Below, piece by piece: positions 9,895-26,333 of a stretch of 33,525 nt of DNA. Positions within the stretch are counted from its first letter, which is position 1, and the number at the start of each line of letters is the position of its first letter. Under the pieces are notes generated by a model. The model was not told the DNA's origin, made no database searches, and worked only from the letters and a program-made list of their open reading frames with translations. The position numbers and the translations under genes were made by a program. This DNA is from Bacteroidaceae bacterium. Its GTDB lineage: Bacteria > Bacteroidota > Bacteroidia > Bacteroidales > Bacteroidaceae. The stretch covers positions 1-33,525 of the forward strand of contig JAFNXM010000003.1 in NCBI GenBank assembly GCA_017383485.1, in the 5' to 3' direction.

Positions 9895-9933
9895 AAACCT
9901 AGACCTTTTTCAAAAAAGGTCTAGGTTTTTTTA
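9895..9933 (+). terminator. Long-stem terminator after patatin gene (repeat-derived)
   Basis: 9895-9910 is fully complementary to 9913-9928 (AAACCTAGACC plus T-run against A-run plus GGTCTAGGTTT), followed by more Ts. The stem is about 14-16 bp with a minimal loop. It belongs to the GGTTAGAC-type repeat family. Confidence 0.75.
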
Positions 9934-9976
9934 AAAAAGGTTAGACTTTTTTTCAACAAGGTCTAACCTTTTTTTC
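9933..9976. repeat. GGTTAGAC-family inverted repeat, copy 2
   Basis: AAAAAAGGTTAGAC (9933-9946) and its exact complement GTCTAACCTTTTTT (9961-9974) form a perfect 14-bp stem with a 14-nt loop that includes TTTTTTTCAAC. It sits directly after the previous hairpin and would terminate transcription in either direction. Confidence 0.75.
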
Positions 9977-10075
9977 TTACCCCAAATCGCACGTGCTCCC
10001 TACCCTGCTTTACTGCGTTTCAGACGTCACTTTTTTCACTCAAAAATAGGAAAAATCGCTACGAAATCTTAAAAT

Positions 10076-10156
10076 ACTATAAATATCGTAGACAAATACT
10101 ATATTTATCGTAGAAAAATTTTGTCGGAATAAACCAACCTACTATATTTGCAGTAG
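10076..10156 (+). promoter_or_regulatory. Three phased dyads upstream of blaI-like gene (candidate operators)
   Basis: Three similar 16-mers: ACTATAAATATCGTAG (10076-10091), ACTATATTTATCGTAG (10098-10113) and ACTATATTTGCAGTAG (10141-10156). They reduce to CTAT-N7-GTAG and start 22 and 43 bp apart, roughly two and four helical turns. BlaI/MecI repressors bind short TA-rich dyads of this general kind next to their own genes. The third copy also contains TATATTTG, a -7-like box. The same half-sites recur in the 32783-32902 array, so these could be a dispersed repeat instead. Confidence 0.55.
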
Positions 10157-10224
10157 AAAACAAATCACAAGCTCAAATACTGAAAAAATTAGAACTCCTT
10201 CGTTGTTAACAACTTTTAACTAAT

Positions 10225-10260
10225 GGGGGGGGGGTAAATGAATATTGTTTAATAAATTTG
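10225..10260 (+). promoter_or_regulatory. G10 tract and putative -7 box before blaI-like gene
   Basis: Ten consecutive G at 10225-10234 precede TAAATTTG (10253-10260), a consensus -7 box 93 bp before the ATG. The expected -33 position falls inside the G-run. Slippage of this run could alter promoter strength. Confidence 0.45.
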
Positions 10261-10353
10261 CACCGTAAGACAACAATAAAGCAAGTTTAACTGAACATCA
10301 AAAAGACTAAAACGAAATAAATAATCCACTATAAATCAATAAATAAATAGAAT

Positions 10354-10713
10354 ATGCAAAAGAATTTGACTAAGGCAGAATTGCAACTGATGAATATCCT
10401 TTGGGACAAAGGCGAAGCGACAGTAAGTGAACTCATCGAAGTAATGGGCGAACCCAAACCGGCATATACCACAGTGCTGACGGTGATGCAAGTACTGACA
10501 CGCAAGGAAGTGGTGCGACCTGTGCGCAAGGGCAAAGCCCATGTATTTCATCCCCTACTCTCTCGCGAGGACTACATCAATAGTTTTATGCACGAGACGC
10601 GCGAATCACTCTTCCATGGTTCGGTGCGTAGTTTCTTCTCCTACTTCGTGAAGAGCGAAAAACTGAGCAAGGAGGAATTGCAAAAGATATTGGATGAAAT
10701 GAGCGAGGAGTAA
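10354..10713 (+). CDS. BlaI/MecI-family transcriptional repressor
   Basis: 119 aa, the usual length for this family. The winged-helix half starts LTKAELQLMNILWDKGEATVSELIE and continues AYTTVLTVMQVLTRKEVV, both strongly typical of BlaI/MecI/CopY repressors. The C-terminal half (YINSFMHETRESLFHGSVRS) is the dimerisation and cleavage region. The partner M56 protease gene begins 60 bp downstream, the arrangement of BlaI-BlaR1 pairs in which the membrane sensor triggers repressor removal. No beta-lactamase is in the locus; the likely targets are the envelope genes that follow. Three dyads upstream are candidate operators for autorepression. Confidence 0.9.
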   Translation: MQKNLTKAELQLMNILWDKGEATVSELIEVMGEPKPAYTTVLTVMQVLTRKEVVRPVRKGKAHVFHPLLSREDYINSFMHETRESLFHGSVRSFFSYFVKSEKLSKEELQKILDEMSEE

Positions 10714-10773
10714 GACTCATGCCCTGACATCATACAGCCACGGCATCAACTGCTTACCAAACCATAACCGATT

Positions 10774-12417
10774 ATGTTGAAAGAAATTCTCCCCTACCTA
10801 TACGGCTACGGGTGGCTCATTGCTACATCCCTACTGCTGTTGTCTTTCTATCACCTGTTTTTGTCACGCAAGCACAGCTACCGCTTCATGCGTCGCTATT
10901 TGCTGGCCATTCCCCTGGTGTGCTTGGTGCAACTCTGCGCTATGGCGATACACCATTACTATACGGCAGATCAGGCTCCCTTGATCATGCAAATGAATCA
11001 AGAAGAGGCCGACGCTTATCTGGCTAAACATCCCGAAAGGCACATCATGGTGCAAGACATGCCTACTGCAGCAGCCCCTGCACAAACGGCAATAGCAACA
11101 TTAGCAAACGAGCCTAAGCAAGCAACGACTCTGAGTTCATCTCGCACTATACATGTATATATTGAATGGGCACTACTTGGCATTTGTGGTGTATCAGTAA
11201 TTTTGATATTGGGGATGATTTCTTCTCTGCTACTGATGTATCGCAAGATGCGCCGTATGCCATCTACAGTCAGCGACGACGGCTATCGCATCATCCGCTC
11301 CTCGCATATCAACACGCCATTTTCTTTTTGGCGCACGATATTCTTGCCCCTCAATCGTACGACAGAAGCCGAAAAGGTATTCATCCGCCACGAAAAAGCC
11401 CATATCACCTGCGCCCACTATATTGATGTGTTGTGTATCGAAGTGATGGTGCGCCTGCTATGGTTCAACCCCTTGCTGTGGTATGTACGCAAGGCGCTGC
11501 GAGACCTGCACGAATACGAAGCAGACCGCATGGTGCTGAGCGCAGGTGAAGATCTGCACACCTATCAAACTCTGCTCTTGGGCGAAATCGGCGAATCGTC
11601 GAGCATTGTTGCCAATGGTTTTGCAAAATCCCTGATCCGCCGTCGCTTCCTCGAAATGAAGCAACAATCATCTGCACCTGTCGGTAGATGGCGTAAGGCG
11701 ATGGCTACGACTTGGCTCCTGCTGCTCTGCGGTGTATTCGTGTTGTACGCTTTTCCCAACGAGCAGCCCATCGTCCTGCAAATCCAGCAGGCAGAACCAT
11801 TCGTTCACGGCATAGACAGCACTATGGTAGCGGCAGACTTGAACACCTGCACGACAAAGGTCTTGACCGACACTGTAAATATTGAGAAAGATACCACAGC
11901 CATCAAGGGCAAAGTGGACTCACTCAAGGTTGAAGCCAAATCAGATAGCACCGCGACCGAACAATCTCAATCTATCGCAGAAGTGAGAATCGTTGCCTAC
12001 AAACAAGACGACACAGCAGAGCGTCCCACCCACGCTGAAGATGGATGGCCTATTCTCTACGATTTGCCAACTCCCGACGCGAGTGACAACAAGAGTATGC
12101 AAATCACACATACCGAAACCGAGACACATCTCACCTTCATCAGGCCCATCAAAAGCGACGACCAGTTGCTACGCTTCGGCGGTCCGGACAGTTATATCGT
12201 CGACTTTGCTACAGGTGCCCACTACAAAGCGCGCCGCAGTATTCCCGCTCAGGCATGGCATTACTTCCATTTGCAGGGAAAGCAGGGCACCAATTGCAAA
12301 GTGACCGTGGTATTTCCTCGTCTGCCTGAGACGACGCAACACATCCAACTCTATCAAGTGACACATCATCTGCAAAGTGGCGACATCTATACCGTCTCGC
12401 AGTGGCAAAACCCATAA
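10774..12417 (+). CDS. M56-family membrane metallopeptidase (BlaR1-like sensor)
   Basis: 547 aa. Membrane segments lie at about residues 10-28, 40-60, 128-152 and 311-328. The zinc site HEKAH is at 206-210, with third ligand Glu247 in HEYEAD (ExxxD), as in BlaR1/MecR1 peptidases. After the last membrane segment the chain runs about 215 residues outside the cytoplasm: first a low-complexity linker rich in Thr, Ser and Asp, then a beta-rich domain (about 450-530; LTFIRPI, VDFATGAHY, VTVVFPRLPE). BlaR1 has a penicillin-binding sensor there; this protein does not. The same pattern occurs in the next two proteins, so it may sense the same ligand or surface state. It presumably signals to the upstream BlaI-type repressor. 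Confidence 0.85.
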   Translation: MLKEILPYLYGYGWLIATSLLLLSFYHLFLSRKHSYRFMRRYLLAIPLVCLVQLCAMAIHHYYTADQAPLIMQMNQEEADAYLAKHPERHIMVQDMPTAAAPAQTAIATLANEPKQATTLSSSRTIHVYIEWALLGICGVSVILILGMISSLLLMYRKMRRMPSTVSDDGYRIIRSSHINTPFSFWRTIFLPLNRTTEAEKVFIRHEKAHITCAHYIDVLCIEVMVRLLWFNPLLWYVRKALRDLHEYEADRMVLSAGEDLHTYQTLLLGEIGESSSIVANGFAKSLIRRRFLEMKQQSSAPVGRWRKAMATTWLLLLCGVFVLYAFPNEQPIVLQIQQAEPFVHGIDSTMVAADLNTCTTKVLTDTVNIEKDTTAIKGKVDSLKVEAKSDSTATEQSQSIAEVRIVAYKQDDTAERPTHAEDGWPILYDLPTPDASDNKSMQITHTETETHLTFIRPIKSDDQLLRFGGPDSYIVDFATGAHYKARRSIPAQAWHYFHLQGKQGTNCKVTVVFPRLPETTQHIQLYQVTHHLQSGDIYTVSQWQNP

Positions 12418-12446
12418 AAATCCAACATTCCCTCTACTCAAACAAT

Positions 12447-13190
12447 ATGAAAAGGACCATCTTTCACCTCATACTCATGCTGTGCGCCGTAGGCATTGCT
12501 TCGTGCCGTTTCCATCGGACCATGCAGCCAGCACAGCAATATATCTCAATAGAACGCAACAGCGACGGCTCAATCAATGCCCAAGGTTTGCGAGTTGTAA
12601 CCGACTCGGCTGAATTAGCGCTCATCCAGCGCATGGCACAAGCGGAAATCACCTACGACACTGTGCCCCAATTTCGCCTACCTCAATTGAAGCGTGAAGC
12701 CGTGAACTATGACGAGAGCGACTACAACACCTTCGCCATATATACCCACCCGCACACCGTAGCAGCACAACCCTATAAAACCTCGAGACTTGAAAAGATG
12801 GCAATATGGTGTACGCCCGAAGCAACGTATTTGGCAGTGATTGACGAACTAAACTGGACGAGCAAATATTATCACGGCGGTAAAGATCAATACCTGCGCG
12901 ACTGCAAAACAGGCCAAGTCTACCCTATCCTCGGATACATCGGTTATCCACTCGGTCAGACGGTCTGGATAGAGGGCGTCGCGGGCGAATGGCATTGCCG
13001 CGTCATGATTTTCCCACCTCTGCCCAAACATTGCACGACCATCGACATCATGAGCGGAGGTGTGAGGCTGAAGAAAATTGAAGGCACCACCGGTTGGACA
13101 GAGCCCGAAGATCACCTCGGGGTAAAAGTGGCCGTTCTACAAGCACAACAACCCATCACAATATACAAGGAGACGGTGGTGGTGGAGTGA
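12447..13190 (+). CDS. Putative lipoprotein with domain shared by neighbours
   Basis: 247 aa from the ATG at 12447. This start gives a lipoprotein signal peptide ending IASC with Cys20 as the lipidated residue. The ATG at 12402, inside the preceding gene, would bury the signal and is rejected. The C-terminal half (about residues 125-205: TYLAVIDELNW, YLRDCKTGQVYPI, VMIFPPLPKH, IDIMSGG) resembles the ectodomain end of the M56 protein and the N-terminus of the thioredoxin protein. No known enzyme motif is seen. It begins 29 bp after the M56 gene and is probably cotranscribed. A role as surface or periplasmic partner of the sensor is an inference. Confidence 0.7.
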   Translation: MKRTIFHLILMLCAVGIASCRFHRTMQPAQQYISIERNSDGSINAQGLRVVTDSAELALIQRMAQAEITYDTVPQFRLPQLKREAVNYDESDYNTFAIYTHPHTVAAQPYKTSRLEKMAIWCTPEATYLAVIDELNWTSKYYHGGKDQYLRDCKTGQVYPILGYIGYPLGQTVWIEGVAGEWHCRVMIFPPLPKHCTTIDIMSGGVRLKKIEGTTGWTEPEDHLGVKVAVLQAQQPITIYKETVVVE

Positions 13191-13286
13191 GCTAAGATAT
13201 ATACATCCCTTCATTCTCGCGTTACAAATCGCACTCCACTGCGTTATATATTAAATGACCTACAACCAATAAACCTCAAATAAATC

Positions 13287-15683
13287 ATGAGACCTAAATT
13301 ACTGACCTTATTATTTACCTTCTTTGTTCTTTTCGTACATGCACAAGTACCACATACGACTTGGGAGCAGCCACGAGTCGGTTACAATAGCCACAGCCAC
13401 GTATTCAGCATCACCAAAGTAAAACTGGGCGACGAGCGCACCGAAGTGACTATGCACGTCAACTTCTTTCCGAAACACTGGATCAAGATGGCTTCGACAG
13501 CCTACTTACAAGTGGGCGACAAACATTACCCTATTCGCAAAAAGATGCCGATGTGGGGAGACAAGGGTACTACGCTTTTGGAACTTGACAAGGAATTTTT
13601 CTTGGACGAAAGCGGACAGCTGGATTTTGTCTGCGTCTTCGATGCACTTCCCAAAGGCACTGCGCATTTCGACCTGATAGAACCTGCAGGATGGCAGATA
13701 TATAATATTCGCCCCAACGATATGATGCCACAAGGTATCACCGACACCTATTGGCGCAACGACAAGACTGGCGATTGGTTCATAGGTATCACAGGGCAGC
13801 ACATCATTTACGACTGCCAAGTATGGCAAATCCTTTCACAAATGCAGAAGAAGGACAAGTATGAGTTTACCATTGCTCGAAGTAATGATACACTTGCTGT
13901 TAGTGTGAGTAAACTGAAGAAGGGTGTGCGCAAAGTGCGCATCGGTAAGACAAAAGCTATTGCATGCGAAGCCATTACCACAAAGACACTTCCCGATTAT
14001 CCTACCCCCGATGCCCGCACAACCTTCAAGGACAACGGCTACCGCGCCGGGGATAGCGTAACCATCTACGGTTGGGTAAAAAATCTTACTCCCGAATTGC
14101 TCAAAGCGGGAGGCGGGAAGTTTGCCGACATCGCTATCGAGAATTTCATTACCGAAGAGGAAGAATCCTTTAATGCACCACTCGATTCGCTCGGTCGCTA
14201 TCATATTACGGTGCCCGTGCTTAATGCGACAGAGGCTTACATAGATTGGGGCAGAAGTATGTTTAATATTGTACTCGAACCTGGAGAAACTTACTTCTTC
14301 CTCTACGACGCCAAGACGGGACAGCAATTGGTGATGGGCAAGGACGCACGCTTGCAAAACGAATTGCAGGCTTATCCAGAGGACATTAGAGGTAATGACA
14401 TCCATGCCTACTACTATCGAGTGCGCAAGAGTAAGGTTGATTTCAAAAGCTTACCTGACAATGAATTGTTGAAATACCTTGATTTTGTTAAGCAGGAAAA
14501 GGCAACAGCAGATAGTTTGCTCGACCTCCGTTTGAAGGAACATCCCAACCTTTCTCAACGCTATGCCCAATACCTCCGCAACCTTTACAAAGCAGAAGTA
14601 GGACGCAACTTGATGCAAGCGAAATTCTTTGCAAAATCCGACACCTTGCCGCCGGAATTTATGGATTATGTTACGCAAGAATGCTGGAACAAAATGGGAA
14701 CTCCCTATACGCTTTACCGCAATTTGAGTACGATGACCCAAAATTACTTGGAGTATATGGAGGAAGAAACTTCTGGCAGTGACGCTATTGAGAAGGTTCT
14801 GAACCTTGAGCGAAAAGGTATCGTCAAACTGACCGACAAGGAACTCAACTATTTCAAGGAATACAAAGGTAAGTTAGCAGAATTACAGAAGAAGGCCGAC
14901 GGTCGTCCCTTGGAGGAGCGACAGGCAATGGTGAGCGAATTTAATAATACAGAGATGGCAAAGACCATCAGCGAGGTGCTGAAACGCTTCCAGTCGGAAC
15001 TGATTGTAGATCTTGTACTTGATGAAACACAAACGGTTATTGACTCCATCCAACTGGATCCTGTACTTCAGGAAATCTACATAGCCAGAAAGTTGTATGG
15101 GCTTATTGAAGACAGAGTTCAACCACTTCCCAAGAGTACCATTCAGTGGATGAACGAAAACATCAAGATGGACTTTGCTCGCCAGGTGGTTCTTGCGCTT
15201 CACGAGAAGTACGACGCCCTTATGAGCAAAGACTTCTCCAACACCACCAACCTGCTCTCTACCGACAACCTGGAAGGCATCACCGAGGGCGAACAGATTC
15301 TGCGCGAACTCATCGCGCCATGGAAGGGCAAAATCATACTGATAGATGTATGGGGTACTTGGTGTAGACCATGCAAAGACGCCTTGGCACACAGTCAAGA
15401 ACTCTACGAGCGCATGAAACCCTACGATATTTACTTCCTCTACATGGCAAATCGTTCGGACGAGACTTCGTGGAAGAATGTCATCAAGGAATACAATGTT
15501 TCGGGCGAAAATGTAGGACACGTAAACTTGCCCGTTGAACAACAAGAAGCCGTAGAGCGCTTCCTAAAAGTAAACAAATACCCCTCCTACTTCCTGATTG
15601 GCCGAGAAGGGCATTTGCTTGACGTCAATGTTGATCCGAGAAATATGGAAGATTTTGAGAATTTGATAAAGAGAATTAAATAA
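13287..15683 (+). CDS. Secreted TlpA/ResA-like thioredoxin-domain protein
   Basis: 798 aa with signal peptide MRPKLLTLLFTFFVLFVHAQ. An N-terminal beta domain (about 20-150: TEVTMHVNFFPKHW, AYLQVGDKHYPI, VFDALPKG) resembles parts of the two preceding proteins. A linker (DARTTFKDNGYRAGDSV) leads to another beta-rich region and a long alpha-helical middle (about 370-660). The C-terminal thioredoxin fold has WGTWCRPC, with active cysteines 693 and 696, and the cis-Pro segment NKYPSYFLIG. This layout is typical of large Bacteroidota TlpA-family proteins thought to reduce or isomerise disulfides in the periplasm. The signal peptide DNA is nearly identical to that of the next gene, whose start lies 28 bp after this stop. 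The redox partner is unknown. Confidence 0.83.
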   Translation: MRPKLLTLLFTFFVLFVHAQVPHTTWEQPRVGYNSHSHVFSITKVKLGDERTEVTMHVNFFPKHWIKMASTAYLQVGDKHYPIRKKMPMWGDKGTTLLELDKEFFLDESGQLDFVCVFDALPKGTAHFDLIEPAGWQIYNIRPNDMMPQGITDTYWRNDKTGDWFIGITGQHIIYDCQVWQILSQMQKKDKYEFTIARSNDTLAVSVSKLKKGVRKVRIGKTKAIACEAITTKTLPDYPTPDARTTFKDNGYRAGDSVTIYGWVKNLTPELLKAGGGKFADIAIENFITEEEESFNAPLDSLGRYHITVPVLNATEAYIDWGRSMFNIVLEPGETYFFLYDAKTGQQLVMGKDARLQNELQAYPEDIRGNDIHAYYYRVRKSKVDFKSLPDNELLKYLDFVKQEKATADSLLDLRLKEHPNLSQRYAQYLRNLYKAEVGRNLMQAKFFAKSDTLPPEFMDYVTQECWNKMGTPYTLYRNLSTMTQNYLEYMEEETSGSDAIEKVLNLERKGIVKLTDKELNYFKEYKGKLAELQKKADGRPLEERQAMVSEFNNTEMAKTISEVLKRFQSELIVDLVLDETQTVIDSIQLDPVLQEIYIARKLYGLIEDRVQPLPKSTIQWMNENIKMDFARQVVLALHEKYDALMSKDFSNTTNLLSTDNLEGITEGEQILRELIAPWKGKIILIDVWGTWCRPCKDALAHSQELYERMKPYDIYFLYMANRSDETSWKNVIKEYNVSGENVGHVNLPVEQQEAVERFLKVNKYPSYFLIGREGHLLDVNVDPRNMEDFENLIKRIK

Positions 15684-15711
15684 GAGCAACCTTAAACTCT
15701 GAGAACACATC

Positions 15712-18549
15712 ATGAGACCTAAATTACTAACCTTACTATTCACCTTTTGCGCTATCGTTGCACAAGCACAAACATTCAGCGTCAAGGGCCTACTTTTCGA
15801 TAGCGAGACGAAAGGGGCTATACCTATGGTGAAAGTGCAACTACTGACAACGGATTCTGCACAAGTAGACATCGCTACGACAAATGATGATGGGGCTTTT
15901 GTACTACGCGCAAAGTCTGCAGGCAAATACATCGTCCGCACAAATATGATAGGCTATGAATCGCTGACAAAGCAAGTGTCGCTCACATCCCAAAAGGCGG
16001 CAATTGATTTGGGGAAACTTGCCCTCAAGGCTACTGACATACAATTAAGCGAAGCCCAAGTCACAGCGCTGTCACGTATGATGACGATGAAGGAAGATAC
16101 ATTGGTCTTTCACTCCTCTGCCCTGCGCTTGCCACCAGGCGCATCGCTCGCCACACTGATGAATCAACTGCCTGGTGTGTCTATTGACAAGGACGGCAAC
16201 CTGACCTTTCAAGGCAAGGCGGTGAGCCAGATCTTGGTCGACGGCAAGCCTTTCTTCGGCGACGTGAATACTGCGCTGGCTAATATGCCTACGGATGCCG
16301 TGCAGGATGTAAAGGTGTATGAGAAGACGGACGAAGAGAAGGAGTTTCGCGGAGAATTGGATGAGCAGAAAGCGACCGTAGTAGACCTGAAGATCAAAAA
16401 GGAATACAAGTCGACCTGGATGACCAATCTAAACCTGGGTGGCGGTACGGATAAGCGCTACATTGGTAAGTTCTTCACTACAAATTTTACCGACAAAAGA
16501 CGTACTGCGATATATGCGCAGATGAATAATATCAGTCAGAACCAACGTGTCGATGAGAATGGTAACTGGAGATATTGGAGCGGCACTGGTGGCGTCTACA
16601 CCTATCGCAAGGCTGGCGCCATGTTGCAATGGGACAATGGTAAGGGCAACAAAGAGGCGGGTAACTTGCGCACAAATATGAATGTCGAAGTGGCGCACAA
16701 CGACCAAACGTCCGTGATGCACAACAATAGTGAGACGTTCCTTGGAGGTAGCAAGTCGCTCTTCAACTATGCTCACAGTTCTAATTTTGAGAAAGACATT
16801 CGCACCAATATCAATGGTCAATTGACTTACAACATCGACTCCCTGAATCGCATCAATCTGTCTGCCAGATATAGCTACAATAATTATGATGAGGACAGTT
16901 GGAGTAAATCCTCGACCTATCACACACAGCCGGATATCACAGAAGGGTTGGCTGAAAGTCTGCTGGGCAATACTATTGACGAGACCTTGAAGCAAAAGGG
17001 TGTTTACTCAAACTACCATAGCGGATTGGGAGACGCACATTATCACAATGCTTCGCTCGATGCCAAATACACTCACCTTTTCAAGAAGAAGGGCAGGACA
17101 TTAGACTTCAGTCTTGGTGCAGGCTATAGGGAGAACAATAATGAAGCGCATCAATGGCAAGAAATACGCTACTTCCAAACCGGTGTGGCTGAGCCCGAGC
17201 GCTTGGTACGCAGATATGGCTTGGGAGTTCAGAAGGCCTACAATCTGGATGCAGGCATCAATTATGTAGACCGACTGACAGAGCATATCAAAATGAATGC
17301 TTCATATCGCTATGTGCACGCTATGAGTCGAGGTAATGAGAACCTGTACAACCTGGACCGCTATGCCGCCTATCGCGATCCGTATCTGCCTCTCGGTCAT
17401 CTGCCCACGGCTGGCGATTCGTTGGAATACACTCGCGACTCACTCAATTCGCAATATTCTCGCGAATACAACGACCAACACTCTCTACGCATCAGTATGT
17501 CGGGACAATGGGAAAAGTGGGAAGCAATGGTTTATCCCTCGCTCAACCTATTCCACGACCGAATCTATATGGAGCGCGGCGGCAATATATACGAGCCCAA
17601 GCGCACACACTTAGGATTAGGGCTCTATTCGTATGTGAAGTACAACATCAACAAGCAGAATTACCTGGAGCTCAATTACAATGGTAGAACAAGCCGTCCC
17701 TCATTGAGCCAACTCCTACCGATCAGCGACACTAGCGACCCTATGTCGGAAACCATCTATAATCCTGATTTGAAGGCAGGCTGGGCCAATAGTGTAGACC
17801 TCTACGGTCGTTTCTTCAATACCAAACGTGGCGACACCTACAGCGTAAGCTTAGGGATAAAGAATCAGAGTAATACACAAGTGTCCACACGACAGACCGA
17901 CCCCAACACAGGCTATACACGCTATAGTTATATGAATGTGAATGGCGACTACAGCACATGGGGCTCGGCATGGACCGAGCAACCGCTGGATACGGCTCGC
18001 TGCTGGATGCTGACTGCCAGTGCCAGAATAAACTACTCACACAACACTGGCTATGTGGGAACAATAGGCGACGAGCTTGGTCTGTCTGCCATCAACCGCA
18101 TCTTGCCGCACACCGGCCTGGGTCTACGTTACCGCAAGGACATCTGGAGCATTTCACTCAACGGTTCGTGGAGCGGCGACTACACACGCTACAAAACTTC
18201 GCCCTTGCACAACCAAAATGGTCACACCTATGAGGTCAGCCTCACCCCTCAGGTCGACCTACCCTTTGGTATGAAGATCAACACCAACCTGATCTACTAC
18301 ACCCGCACCGGCTATGCAGACGACCTATTGAACCACGATCAATGGATTCTGAATGCGTCGATATCGCAGAGTTTCCTGAAGAGCAAGGCCCTAACCTTGC
18401 AGCTCGAAGCCGTTGACCTGTTGAAACAACGTACGTCGGAATTCAACCACCTCACAGCAGGTGGCAGATATTTCAACCGTACGGAGTGTTTCCTGAGCTA
18501 CATCATGCTACACGCCACCTATAAGTTCAACATTGGTGGTAAGAAATAG
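15712..18549 (+). CDS. TonB-receptor-like outer-membrane beta-barrel protein
   Basis: 945 aa with signal peptide MRPKLLTLLFTFCAIVAQAQ. A carboxypeptidase-regulatory-like beta domain (about 22-110; SVKGLLFDSETKGAIPMVKV, NMIGYESLTKQV) is followed by a plug-like region (LMNQLPGVSIDKDGNLTFQG, ILVDGKPFFG) and a long C-terminal barrel of alternating aromatic strands. It fits the outer-membrane beta-barrel family related to TonB-dependent receptors. No SusD partner is adjacent, so it is not a canonical polysaccharide-uptake pair. It is the last gene of the BlaI/M56 locus and is followed by a terminator. Expected role is transport or surface exposure of a factor linked to the upstream sensor; the ligand is unknown. 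Confidence 0.85.
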   Translation: MRPKLLTLLFTFCAIVAQAQTFSVKGLLFDSETKGAIPMVKVQLLTTDSAQVDIATTNDDGAFVLRAKSAGKYIVRTNMIGYESLTKQVSLTSQKAAIDLGKLALKATDIQLSEAQVTALSRMMTMKEDTLVFHSSALRLPPGASLATLMNQLPGVSIDKDGNLTFQGKAVSQILVDGKPFFGDVNTALANMPTDAVQDVKVYEKTDEEKEFRGELDEQKATVVDLKIKKEYKSTWMTNLNLGGGTDKRYIGKFFTTNFTDKRRTAIYAQMNNISQNQRVDENGNWRYWSGTGGVYTYRKAGAMLQWDNGKGNKEAGNLRTNMNVEVAHNDQTSVMHNNSETFLGGSKSLFNYAHSSNFEKDIRTNINGQLTYNIDSLNRINLSARYSYNNYDEDSWSKSSTYHTQPDITEGLAESLLGNTIDETLKQKGVYSNYHSGLGDAHYHNASLDAKYTHLFKKKGRTLDFSLGAGYRENNNEAHQWQEIRYFQTGVAEPERLVRRYGLGVQKAYNLDAGINYVDRLTEHIKMNASYRYVHAMSRGNENLYNLDRYAAYRDPYLPLGHLPTAGDSLEYTRDSLNSQYSREYNDQHSLRISMSGQWEKWEAMVYPSLNLFHDRIYMERGGNIYEPKRTHLGLGLYSYVKYNINKQNYLELNYNGRTSRPSLSQLLPISDTSDPMSETIYNPDLKAGWANSVDLYGRFFNTKRGDTYSVSLGIKNQSNTQVSTRQTDPNTGYTRYSYMNVNGDYSTWGSAWTEQPLDTARCWMLTASARINYSHNTGYVGTIGDELGLSAINRILPHTGLGLRYRKDIWSISLNGSWSGDYTRYKTSPLHNQNGHTYEVSLTPQVDLPFGMKINTNLIYYTRTGYADDLLNHDQWILNASISQSFLKSKALTLQLEAVDLLKQRTSEFNHLTAGGRYFNRTECFLSYIMLHATYKFNIGGKK

Positions 18550-18635: not shown

Positions 18636-18666
18636 GGCACTGAGTCCCCACTCGGTGCCTTTTTTA
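18636..18666 (+). terminator. Terminator of the BlaI/M56 locus
   Basis: GGCACTGAGT and ACTCGGTGCC form a perfect 10-bp stem (one G-U) with a CCCC loop, followed by a T-run. An 8-bp inverted pair, ACTGTTCG at 18572-18579 and CGAACAGT at 18626-18633, encloses the AT-rich stretch just before it. Confidence 0.88.
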
Positions 18667-25245: not shown

Positions 25246-25731
25246 ATGAAAACTACAGAAATTGCATTCGAGGAAATGCTTCGAGAGCACAAGAATACGA
25301 TATACACCGTGTGCTATATGTTCTCGAAAGACCGAGAAGAAGTCAACGACTTGTTCCAGGAGGTGGTGATCAATATCTGGAAAGGTATGCCCTCGTTTAA
25401 GGGGGAAAGCAACGTGAAGACCTGGATATGGCGCATCAGTTTCAACACCTGCATTTCGTTAGGCCGAAAGAAGAAACGCGCCGAAAAGGTTCCGCTATCG
25501 ATGGCGATCGACCTGTTCAACGACGGCAATGAAGAGACGCGGCAAATCAAGCAGCTCTATGAGCGCATACACCGTCTGCAACCCTTCGACCGCGCCATCG
25601 TTCTTTTGTGGCTCGAAGGCTTGCCCTACGACGAGATCGGCGCCATCGTTGGTATATCTACGAAGAATGTCTCGGTGCGCCTCTACCGCATCAAAGAGGA
25701 ATTAAAGAACATGTCTAATCATCAAGAATAA
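25246..25731 (+). CDS. ECF-type RNA polymerase sigma factor (copy 2)
   Basis: 161 aa, closely similar to the sigma factor at 22368. Region 2 (REHKNTIYTVCYMFSKDREE, NDLFQEVVINIWKGMPSFKG, KTWIWRISFNTC) and region 4 (RAIVLLWLEGLPYDEIGAI, ISTKNVSVRLYRIKEELKN) are nearly the same. The linker (RKKKRAEKVPLSMAIDLFND) is more diverged. It is preceded by the same promoter module and followed after 5 bp by a paralogous membrane protein gene. The close match in recognition regions suggests the two sigmas read overlapping promoter sets. Confidence 0.92.
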   Translation: MKTTEIAFEEMLREHKNTIYTVCYMFSKDREEVNDLFQEVVINIWKGMPSFKGESNVKTWIWRISFNTCISLGRKKKRAEKVPLSMAIDLFNDGNEETRQIKQLYERIHRLQPFDRAIVLLWLEGLPYDEIGAIVGISTKNVSVRLYRIKEELKNMSNHQE

Positions 25732-25736
25732 AAGCT

Positions 25737-26333
25737 ATGATTAATAACGATATAGACTCAAAGGAATTGCGCGAAATGAAAGAGCAATTGGCGCTTTTGA
25801 CACGTCAATTGGAAAAGGAGGAAATCATCAGCAAACGCATGATTCGTCAGGCGATGAAAAGCAAGGCCTATTCGCTACGCAGAGATGCCATCATCGAGGG
25901 GGTGATTTGCATCATCTTGGCTCCCCTCTATATATGGCTTGCACCACTGCTGGGTTTCTCTATCTATTTTAGTATCTTCACTGCACTTTTTTTACTCTTT
26001 GCAGCCTACTACAACTACTACATGCACAGTCAATTTGACCCCGAGAATTTCATAGATGGCAACATCGTCGAGGTACGCAAGAAGACAATTAAGCTAAAAA
26101 GGCAATACGCCAAGTGGCTTCCCCAATTTGGCATTCCATTCATCATCATATTCCTTGTATGGTTCGTTTACGATGTCACACATTACTACCAGGGCGAATT
26201 ATTAAAGGGGGTGCTTGTCGGCGGCGCAGTTGGTCTAATCATCGGGGGTATAATAGGCTTGCGACAACGATTCAAAACCCTCCGCAAAACAGACGAAATC
26301 ATTCGACAAATAGAAGAATTGGAAGAAGAATAG
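25737..26333 (+). CDS. Membrane protein paired with ECF sigma (putative anti-sigma, copy 2)
   Basis: 198 aa, paralog of the protein at 22872. The cytoplasmic N-terminus (IDSKELREMKEQLALLTRQL) is the best-conserved part, as expected if it contacts the sigma factor. Two hydrophobic segments follow (about 52-98), then a charged connector (DPENFIDGNIVEVRKKTIKL), two further membrane segments (about 128-148 and 158-176, the last glycine-rich: GGAVGLIIGGIIGL) and a Lys/Glu-rich tail. The start ATG at 25737 lies 5 bp after the sigma stop. The signal sensed and the mechanism are unknown. Confidence 0.7.
   Translation: MINNDIDSKELREMKEQLALLTRQLEKEEIISKRMIRQAMKSKAYSLRRDAIIEGVICIILAPLYIWLAPLLGFSIYFSIFTALFLLFAAYYNYYMHSQFDPENFIDGNIVEVRKKTIKLKRQYAKWLPQFGIPFIIIFLVWFVYDVTHYYQGELLKGVLVGGAVGLIIGGIIGLRQRFKTLRKTDEIIRQIEELEEE

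Follow-up and report, generated by a model that had tools for sequence, protein, structure and literature searches.

BlaR1/BlaI is the textbook case of receptor signalling by repressor cleavage and is tied to beta-lactams; the operator sites of BlaI and MecI are of the TACA/TGTA kind. We analyzed a stretch of 33,525 nucleotides (the window) from a Bacteroidaceae bacterium (assembly GCA_017383485.1, contig JAFNXM010000003.1, positions 1–33,525 of the forward strand), whose genome is a 1.68-Mb metagenome-assembled genome (MAG) of 63.55% completeness. A run of five plus-strand genes at 10354–18549 encodes a BlaI/MecI-type repressor (BlaI), an M56 zinc protease with a C-terminal ectodomain (M56), a lipoprotein (LIP), a TlpA-like protein (TLP) and an outer-membrane beta-barrel (OMB). 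The locus shares with BlaR1–BlaI and MecR1–MecI of staphylococci the pairing of a repressor with a membrane M56 protease, the HExxH and ExxxD motifs, the autocleavage Phe, the Phe of the repressor cleavage site and dyads over its own promoter. It differs from them in three respects: the ectodomain is a domain termed ECTO1 complemented by a lipoprotein-borne ECTO2 rather than a penicillin-binding domain, the neighbours are TlpA and barrel genes with no beta-lactamase, and the dyads are 16 bp long, TAC(T/G)AT-N4-AT(A/C)GTA, unlike the TACA/TGTA sites. With a probability of roughly two in three, we propose that the locus is a BlaR1/BlaI-type repressor–protease switch that senses through a two-part periplasmic module made of ECTO1 on M56 and ECTO2 on the lipoprotein. 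This proposal is read from the sequence, namely from domain homology, ECTO1/ECTO2 pairing, operator layout and exclusivity, and conserved catalytic and cleavage residues. The switch would be of the BlaR1/BlaI kind, and what would be new is the portable sensor module; the interest of the locus lies in a two-part ECTO sensor common to two regulator types.

The repressor gene (10354–10713, plus strand) encodes a protein matching Penicillinase_R (PF03965, 3e-30; 105 bits, cut-off 22.6), and the protease gene (10774–12417, plus strand) one matching PF05569 above its cut-off (3e-12), with HEKAH at residue 206 and HEYEAD at residue 246. An excerpt of a paper on the S. aureus proteins (PMC9834060) names Asp210, Tyr261, Asp246, Arg294 and autocleavage Phe284 in BlaR1 and places the BlaI cleavage site at Asn101-Phe102. 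M56 agrees with BlaR1 in HExxH, ExxxD, Tyr264, Asp251, Arg291 and autocleavage Phe283; the window BlaI has Tyr97-Phe98 at the alignment position of the cleavage site, and the P1′ Phe of this site is present in 22 of 25 BlaI proteins. The protease and cleavage-site residues mostly agree with those of BlaR1/BlaI, and cleavage itself is predicted. Hydropathy indicates three transmembrane segments in M56, two before the motif and one after it, compared with four in BlaR1 (same excerpt, PMC9834060); following BlaR1 topology, the M56 ectodomain presumably lies on the periplasmic side.

BlaR1 models matched M56 in the protease region only, and neither Pfam nor NCBIfam returned a penicillin-binding or class D family for the ectodomain, which bears out an earlier description of this DNA made from the sequence alone (the preliminary description). 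An ordinary orphan BlaR1/BlaI pair still sensing beta-lactams or cell-wall fragments would account for the family membership of BlaI and M56, and a peptidoglycan fragment is the reported inducer in B. licheniformis (excerpt of PMC3305447). Such a pair is very improbable here, since M56 carries no penicillin-binding domain and a Pfam scan of 17 window proteins gave no beta-lactamase family; beta-lactam sensing was rejected on the first of these grounds. M56 is encoded by the only gene of its family found in the incomplete genome. Other Bacteroidota have the same gene pair, and 43 such sets differ in that ECTO could be detected neither on M56 nor in the genes that come after it. In P. gingivalis a BlaI gene beside an M56 gene was differentially expressed in a hemin contrast, according to an excerpt of PMC10470040.

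The sensor proposal starts from the homology of ECTO1 (M56 residues 433–529; 12070–12360, plus strand) and ECTO2 (LIP; 12720–13058, plus strand), domains of about 100 amino acids each that were delimited by iterated profile and hhalign; the N-terminus of TLP carries a related domain. Pairwise BLASTP related M56 to LIP at E 0.001 at best and gave no usable result with TLP, so profile methods were used. An iterated profile seeded with LIP picked up the M56 C-terminal ectodomain (E 3e-33) together with relatives, and hhalign aligned this ectodomain to LIP at 96.5% (E 8e-10) and the TLP N-terminus to the lipoprotein profile at 97.3% (E 2.6e-11) and to the M56 profile at 84.3% (E 7e-6). An ECTO model matched 114 proteins at E<1e-3 in a set of 1976 that is enriched for ECTO, many loci having been fetched for the domain, and zero of the same 1976 sequences when reversed. 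The model found 5 of 37 TLPm-type proteins at this threshold, and the TLP link to ECTO therefore rests on the profile comparisons. The preliminary description had overlooked that one domain family is common to the M56 ectodomain, the lipoprotein and the TlpA N-terminus.

The lipoprotein itself (12447–13190, plus strand; lipobox IASC) has no Pfam family above its cut-off. Eleven ECTO members tested matched no Pfam family, apart from scattered single matches at E 0.016 or worse, and no relative was found in the PDB, where weak scattered matches reached E 0.014 at best (others 0.024 and 0.087). DUF5643 (PF18705) resembles ECTO in weakly matching the ECTO-like part of the TlpA proteins of L265 (E 3e-5) and L256 (E 0.027); these matches lie below the curated cut-off and none was obtained for the 11 members. 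In the open-access literature, we found among the matches listed no paper on the ECTO domain and none on BlaI–M56 with a lipoprotein and TlpA. At E<=1e-5, ECTO was detected in 104 of the 399 family genomes searched and in 3 of 395 across the phylum, all three from the window's own family. The lipoprotein profile matched 6 of 198 genomes across the order; three of these belong to other families, and one of the three matched no better than E 5e-6. The distribution of the locus is patchy: of 58 genomes in the genus, many of which are incomplete, 4 have the lipoprotein. The nearest named record with the locus is Prevotellaceae bacterium cow7.9 (L251), and the others are largely ruminant-gut MAGs.

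ECTO1 and ECTO2 recur together. From 33 ECTO-bearing BlaI–M56 sets, 26 were kept after seven duplicates had been removed by hand, with close relatives such as L043/L173/L174 remaining among them. The order BlaI–M56–lipoprotein(ECTO) is found in 17 of the 26, ECTO2 is fused onto M56 with no separate adjacent lipoprotein in three, BlaI and M56 are separated by an ECTO gene in four, and ECTO is confined to M56 within the run in two. When the fused M56 proteins were scored with profiles from split loci, the first copy was of M56 type and the second of lipoprotein type (3/3 each). In a tree of 99 domains, one split with support 0.996 sorts 93 into ECTO1 and ECTO2 types, and the labels change 6 times against a mean of 32 and a minimum of 25 after shuffling; of the six misfits, four are the M56 ectodomains of L184, L187, L190 and L198, and another, L238_S46, is an open frame located where a contig starts, which we interpret as the 3′ end of an M56 gene. 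By these sequence measures ECTO1 and ECTO2 behave as a fixed pair and not as a repeat, their order being kept wherever it was scored. Directly 3′ of the fused M56–ECTO–ECTO gene, two loci carry a gene with an MG2 domain (L032 6187–8682 and L176 4166–6679), the match being above the Pfam cut-off in L032 and below it in L176.

The same pair also occurs in free proteins of about 360–440 amino acids, with 23 entries, duplicates included, among the ECTO loci fetched. All 18 first domains scored were M56-type and all 18 second domains scored were lipoprotein-type, with both scored in 17 proteins; this classification covered 108 domains after removal of 13 duplicate loci and of pieces below 75 amino acids, and some of the double-ECTO proteins are close relatives (L265 and L266 score alike). 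For 11 of the 23 entries an upstream gene was scanned, and in every case it encodes an extracytoplasmic function (ECF) sigma factor; about ten others have different or cut-off neighbours. The scanned entries were those with a gene of 160–194 amino acids two places upstream, including L203, where only a small opposite open reading frame lies between; L195 and L207 have a gene of this size too and fell outside the 11. The intervening gene, read in four loci, encodes 301–339 amino acids with one transmembrane segment and is probably an anti-sigma factor. TlpA-type genes, sometimes with a barrel, lie 3′ of several double-ECTO genes, and in L265 (Prevotella communis E15-14) and L267 they include a homologue of the window TLP family. 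In L199 and L200, a BlaI–M56 pair follows the double-ECTO gene. These Prevotella-type operons share with the window the ECTO1–ECTO2 pair and the downstream TlpA and occasional barrel genes, and differ from it in that their output is an ECF sigma factor with a one-transmembrane partner instead of a repressor and a protease. The ECTO pair is therefore attached to two unrelated regulators.

A DUF5041 gene adjoins the TlpA gene in both contexts, at L256 6991–7587 (BlaI–M56) and at L267 12552–13145 (ECF); similarly placed genes in L265 and L257 gave no DUF5041 match. The window also contains an ECF sigma factor gene followed by one for a 198-amino-acid protein with no Pfam match (25246–26333), and no additional ECTO domain was found by profile search in the window's own incomplete genome.

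The recurrence of the pair bears on whether the lipoprotein senses at all. It could instead be an effector, a duplicated binding domain with which LIP, TLP and OMB handle an envelope ligand while M56 alone senses. The presence of the domain on TLP proteins would fit such a role, as would LIP-like genes with no adjacent BlaI–M56 in the stretch read (L172, L175, L179, L180, L186 and L193), but the ECTO1–ECTO2 pairing, including its fusion in one M56 chain, and the occurrence of the same pair behind an ECF sigma factor and a one-transmembrane gene both indicate sensing and make the effector role improbable. For the two-part sensor, fusion and pairing suggest that ECTO1 and ECTO2 may touch physically. 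A wider version, to which we give about even odds, has ECTO1–ECTO2 as a portable two-part periplasmic sensor of Bacteroidales that is used by repressor–protease and by ECF sigma/anti-sigma pairs, both steering TlpA-type proteins and barrels, with the ECTO copy of TlpA serving as feedback or decoy and the TlpA middle being exchanged by recombination. The presence of the pair in two unrelated regulator types is a natural experiment, in which the common parts (ECTO pair, TlpA and barrel) should reveal the cue, and it offers a testable envelope-sensing role for dozens of Bacteroidales genes that lack a Pfam family.

Upstream of BlaI, a dyad search located two operator dyads, TACTATAAATATCGTA and TACTATATTTATCGTA, spaced 22 bp apart (10075–10112), and a third, TACTATATTTGCAGTA (10140–10155), which covers the −7 box of the BlaI operon promoter TTTG...TATATTTG (10120–10150, plus strand). 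The promoter was recognized by its TTTG/TAnnTTTG pair, which we take to be of the Bacteroidota type. The dyads start at 10075, 10097 and 10140; the 482-bp gap holds three TAC...GTA dyads, whereas 2000 dinucleotide shuffles averaged 0.026 and never gave as many as three. Exact dyad pairs 22 bp apart also lie 5′ of BlaI in the sister genome G409 and in the congener G400; in the congener G341 the pair has one mismatched copy and the three-dyad layout of the window is kept. Adjacency in G409 was read from window synteny, as its operator sites end contig C18 behind a patatin gene and BlaI starts C58, and the G341 locus is divided between contigs C90 and C37. The exact pattern TACKATNNNNATMGTA has eight matches over the four genomes (two each), all eight within the BlaI–M56 locus; it was built from the window, so its two window sites are there by construction, and the other six come from the three other genomes. 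These sites lie 5′ of BlaI in all four genomes, with one in the LIP–OMB gap of G341. As a control, the pattern was reversed and then gave 1, 2, 0 and 0 sites across these genomes.

Among the BlaI upstream regions of 24 loci, compared by eye, a TTTG/TAnnTTTG promoter with a dyad over the −7 box was seen in seven (the window, L183, L188, L189, L191, L256 and, less perfectly, L182), and a TACTATTAAAATAGTT dyad farther upstream in six (L032, L171, L176, L184, L190 and L198). Autoregulation of BlaI through the upstream dyads is well supported by layout, congeners and the exclusivity of the operator (8/8), with operator binding predicted, so that the repressor control suggested in the preliminary description holds in this respect. 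A regulon outside the locus was rejected, as the four incomplete genomes hold no further exact operator; allowing up to two mismatches gave 10 matches in the window's genome against 13 for the control pattern. Between the patatin gene and the operators, the window carries nested inverted repeats, AAACCTAGACC... (9895–9974), which are largely kept in G409 (L287) and are perhaps a bidirectional terminator.

Whether TLP and OMB belong to the same unit was judged from their position and from other genomes. TLP (13287–15683, plus strand) consists of the N-terminal ECTO-like domain, a variable middle and a C-terminal thioredoxin domain of TlpA type with a CxxC motif (Thioredoxin_8, 1.5e-10, 41.7 bits against a cut-off of 27; WCRPC at residue 692). 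OMB (15712–18549, plus strand) has a CarboxypepD_reg-like N-terminus (CarbopepD_reg_2) and an OMP_b-brl_3 barrel (1e-21). Pfam reported these two kinds of family alone at E<=0.01 and no TonB plug family; the barrel of the "TonB-receptor-like" assignment in the preliminary description stands, and the receptor likeness lacks its plug. The intergenic gaps within the run are 60, 29, 96 and 28 bp, and a hairpin intrinsic terminator follows at 18636–18659 (plus strand). The only other plus-strand site in the terminator scan, which gave 11 sites overall against 9.4 in shuffles, is one weak match within M56, with none between genes. Open reading frames, Pfam and this terminator confirm the earlier reading of a repressor and an M56 protease (HEKAH, ExxxD) heading a same-strand run to one terminator.

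Control by BlaI might extend to BlaI–M56–LIP only, with TLP and OMB as chance neighbours under their own promoters. TLP is missing at the locus in G341 and G400, where the barrel follows the lipoprotein at 0.7–1.1 kb; G341 has a terminator-like hairpin, read by eye, after LIP; TLP and OMB are mosaic between sisters; and BlaI and M56 are both missing from all 26 stretches fetched around TLP homologues of the family, several of these stretches being short. The search for these homologues matched 49 genomes; those of G407 and G397 likewise lack BlaI or M56, and G053 has a BlaI–M56 pair about 14 kb from one. We nevertheless consider chance neighbourhood unlikely, given the 96- and 28-bp gaps with no intergenic terminator found in the window, the exact BlaI operator between the non-contiguous LIP and OMB genes of G341, the barrel directly after BlaI–M56 in G403, and RGIG3754 (L256, L260), which has BlaI–M56–LIP, genes of 493 and 198 amino acids, a TlpA with ECTO and thioredoxin domains and OMB, this TlpA and barrel pair differing from that of the window. 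In the sister G409 all five genes keep their order, and TLP and OMB are 1.3 kb apart there, with two additional open reading frames in between. Of the 26 ECTO sets, 8 have a thioredoxin gene downstream, compared with 2 of 42 sets with no ECTO (the 43 less one duplicate; Fisher p 0.005), although the two collections come from different searches and hold related species. Barrels are not commoner in ECTO sets, at 5/33 (3/26 without duplicates) against 7/43, the seven including a second M56 protein and three short proteins of 282–494 amino acids.

Co-control of TLP and OMB with the BlaI operon is likely on this evidence, presumably by read-through. The preliminary description had suggested that the locus controls its own barrel and thioredoxin protein and had named conserved gene order as a check: BlaI–M56–LIP (17/26), the whole order in G409 and the short gaps speak for it, and the separation of TLP from BlaI–M56 elsewhere against it. 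TLP as a fixed BlaI–M56 partner was rejected (26/26 stretches with neither BlaI nor M56), as was the barrel as a speciality of ECTO sets (5/33 vs 7/43). A palindromic repeat element, GACGCTGAAGGCGTC..., occupies much of the lipoprotein–barrel gap and is similar in G341 and G400 (L192/L238).

Under the proposed two-part-sensor switch, BlaI dimers would occupy the three dyads at rest and cover the promoter. When the ECTO1–ECTO2 pair encounters a periplasmic cue (a client, a ligand, or an envelope or thiol state), M56 would autocleave and then cleave BlaI at Tyr97-Phe98, and the derepressed operon would supply extra sensor together with the periplasmic thioredoxin protein and the barrel. An ECTO-like domain is present on TLP too, so that effector and sensor probably share a target, and the effector could then turn the sensor off; both this feedback and the envelope or redox nature of the cue are what we infer. 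Several observations weigh against the switch. BlaR1 Asp210 aligns with His215 in M56, leaving four of the five named BlaR1 residues kept, and 11 of the 24 BlaI upstream regions have neither kind of dyad. The M56 ectodomain groups with ECTO2 in L184, L187 and L190, which are BlaI–ECTO–M56 loci, and in L198; the M56 of L181, counted among the 17, has no detectable ECTO; and no lipoprotein follows M56 in L279. The close congeners, moreover, are MAGs, with several loci divided over contigs.

Comparison with G409 also revealed a mosaic in the distal genes. Protein identity is 99% for BlaI, 96% for M56, 96% for LIP and 92% for OMB, against 63% for TLP. The first ~190 codons and the thioredoxin end of TLP are near-identical, and identity falls at a sharp edge to roughly 39–57% at the DNA level in the middle (about 13857–15265). 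The first ~100 residues of OMB are divergent too (15712–16050, window vs L237), and the sequence flanking the divergent blocks is otherwise ~95–97% identical. Repeats at the mosaic edges were sought and not found, and a search of the window's incomplete genome for the G409 middle gave nothing at E<=1e-5. Exchange of the TLP middle and the OMB N-terminus by recombination is the simplest reading, and chimeric MAG assembly is a possible alternative source of the same pattern. TLP and OMB start with near-identical leaders (68 nucleotides, 78%; MRPKLLTLLFTF) at 13279–13346 and 15704–15771 of the window.

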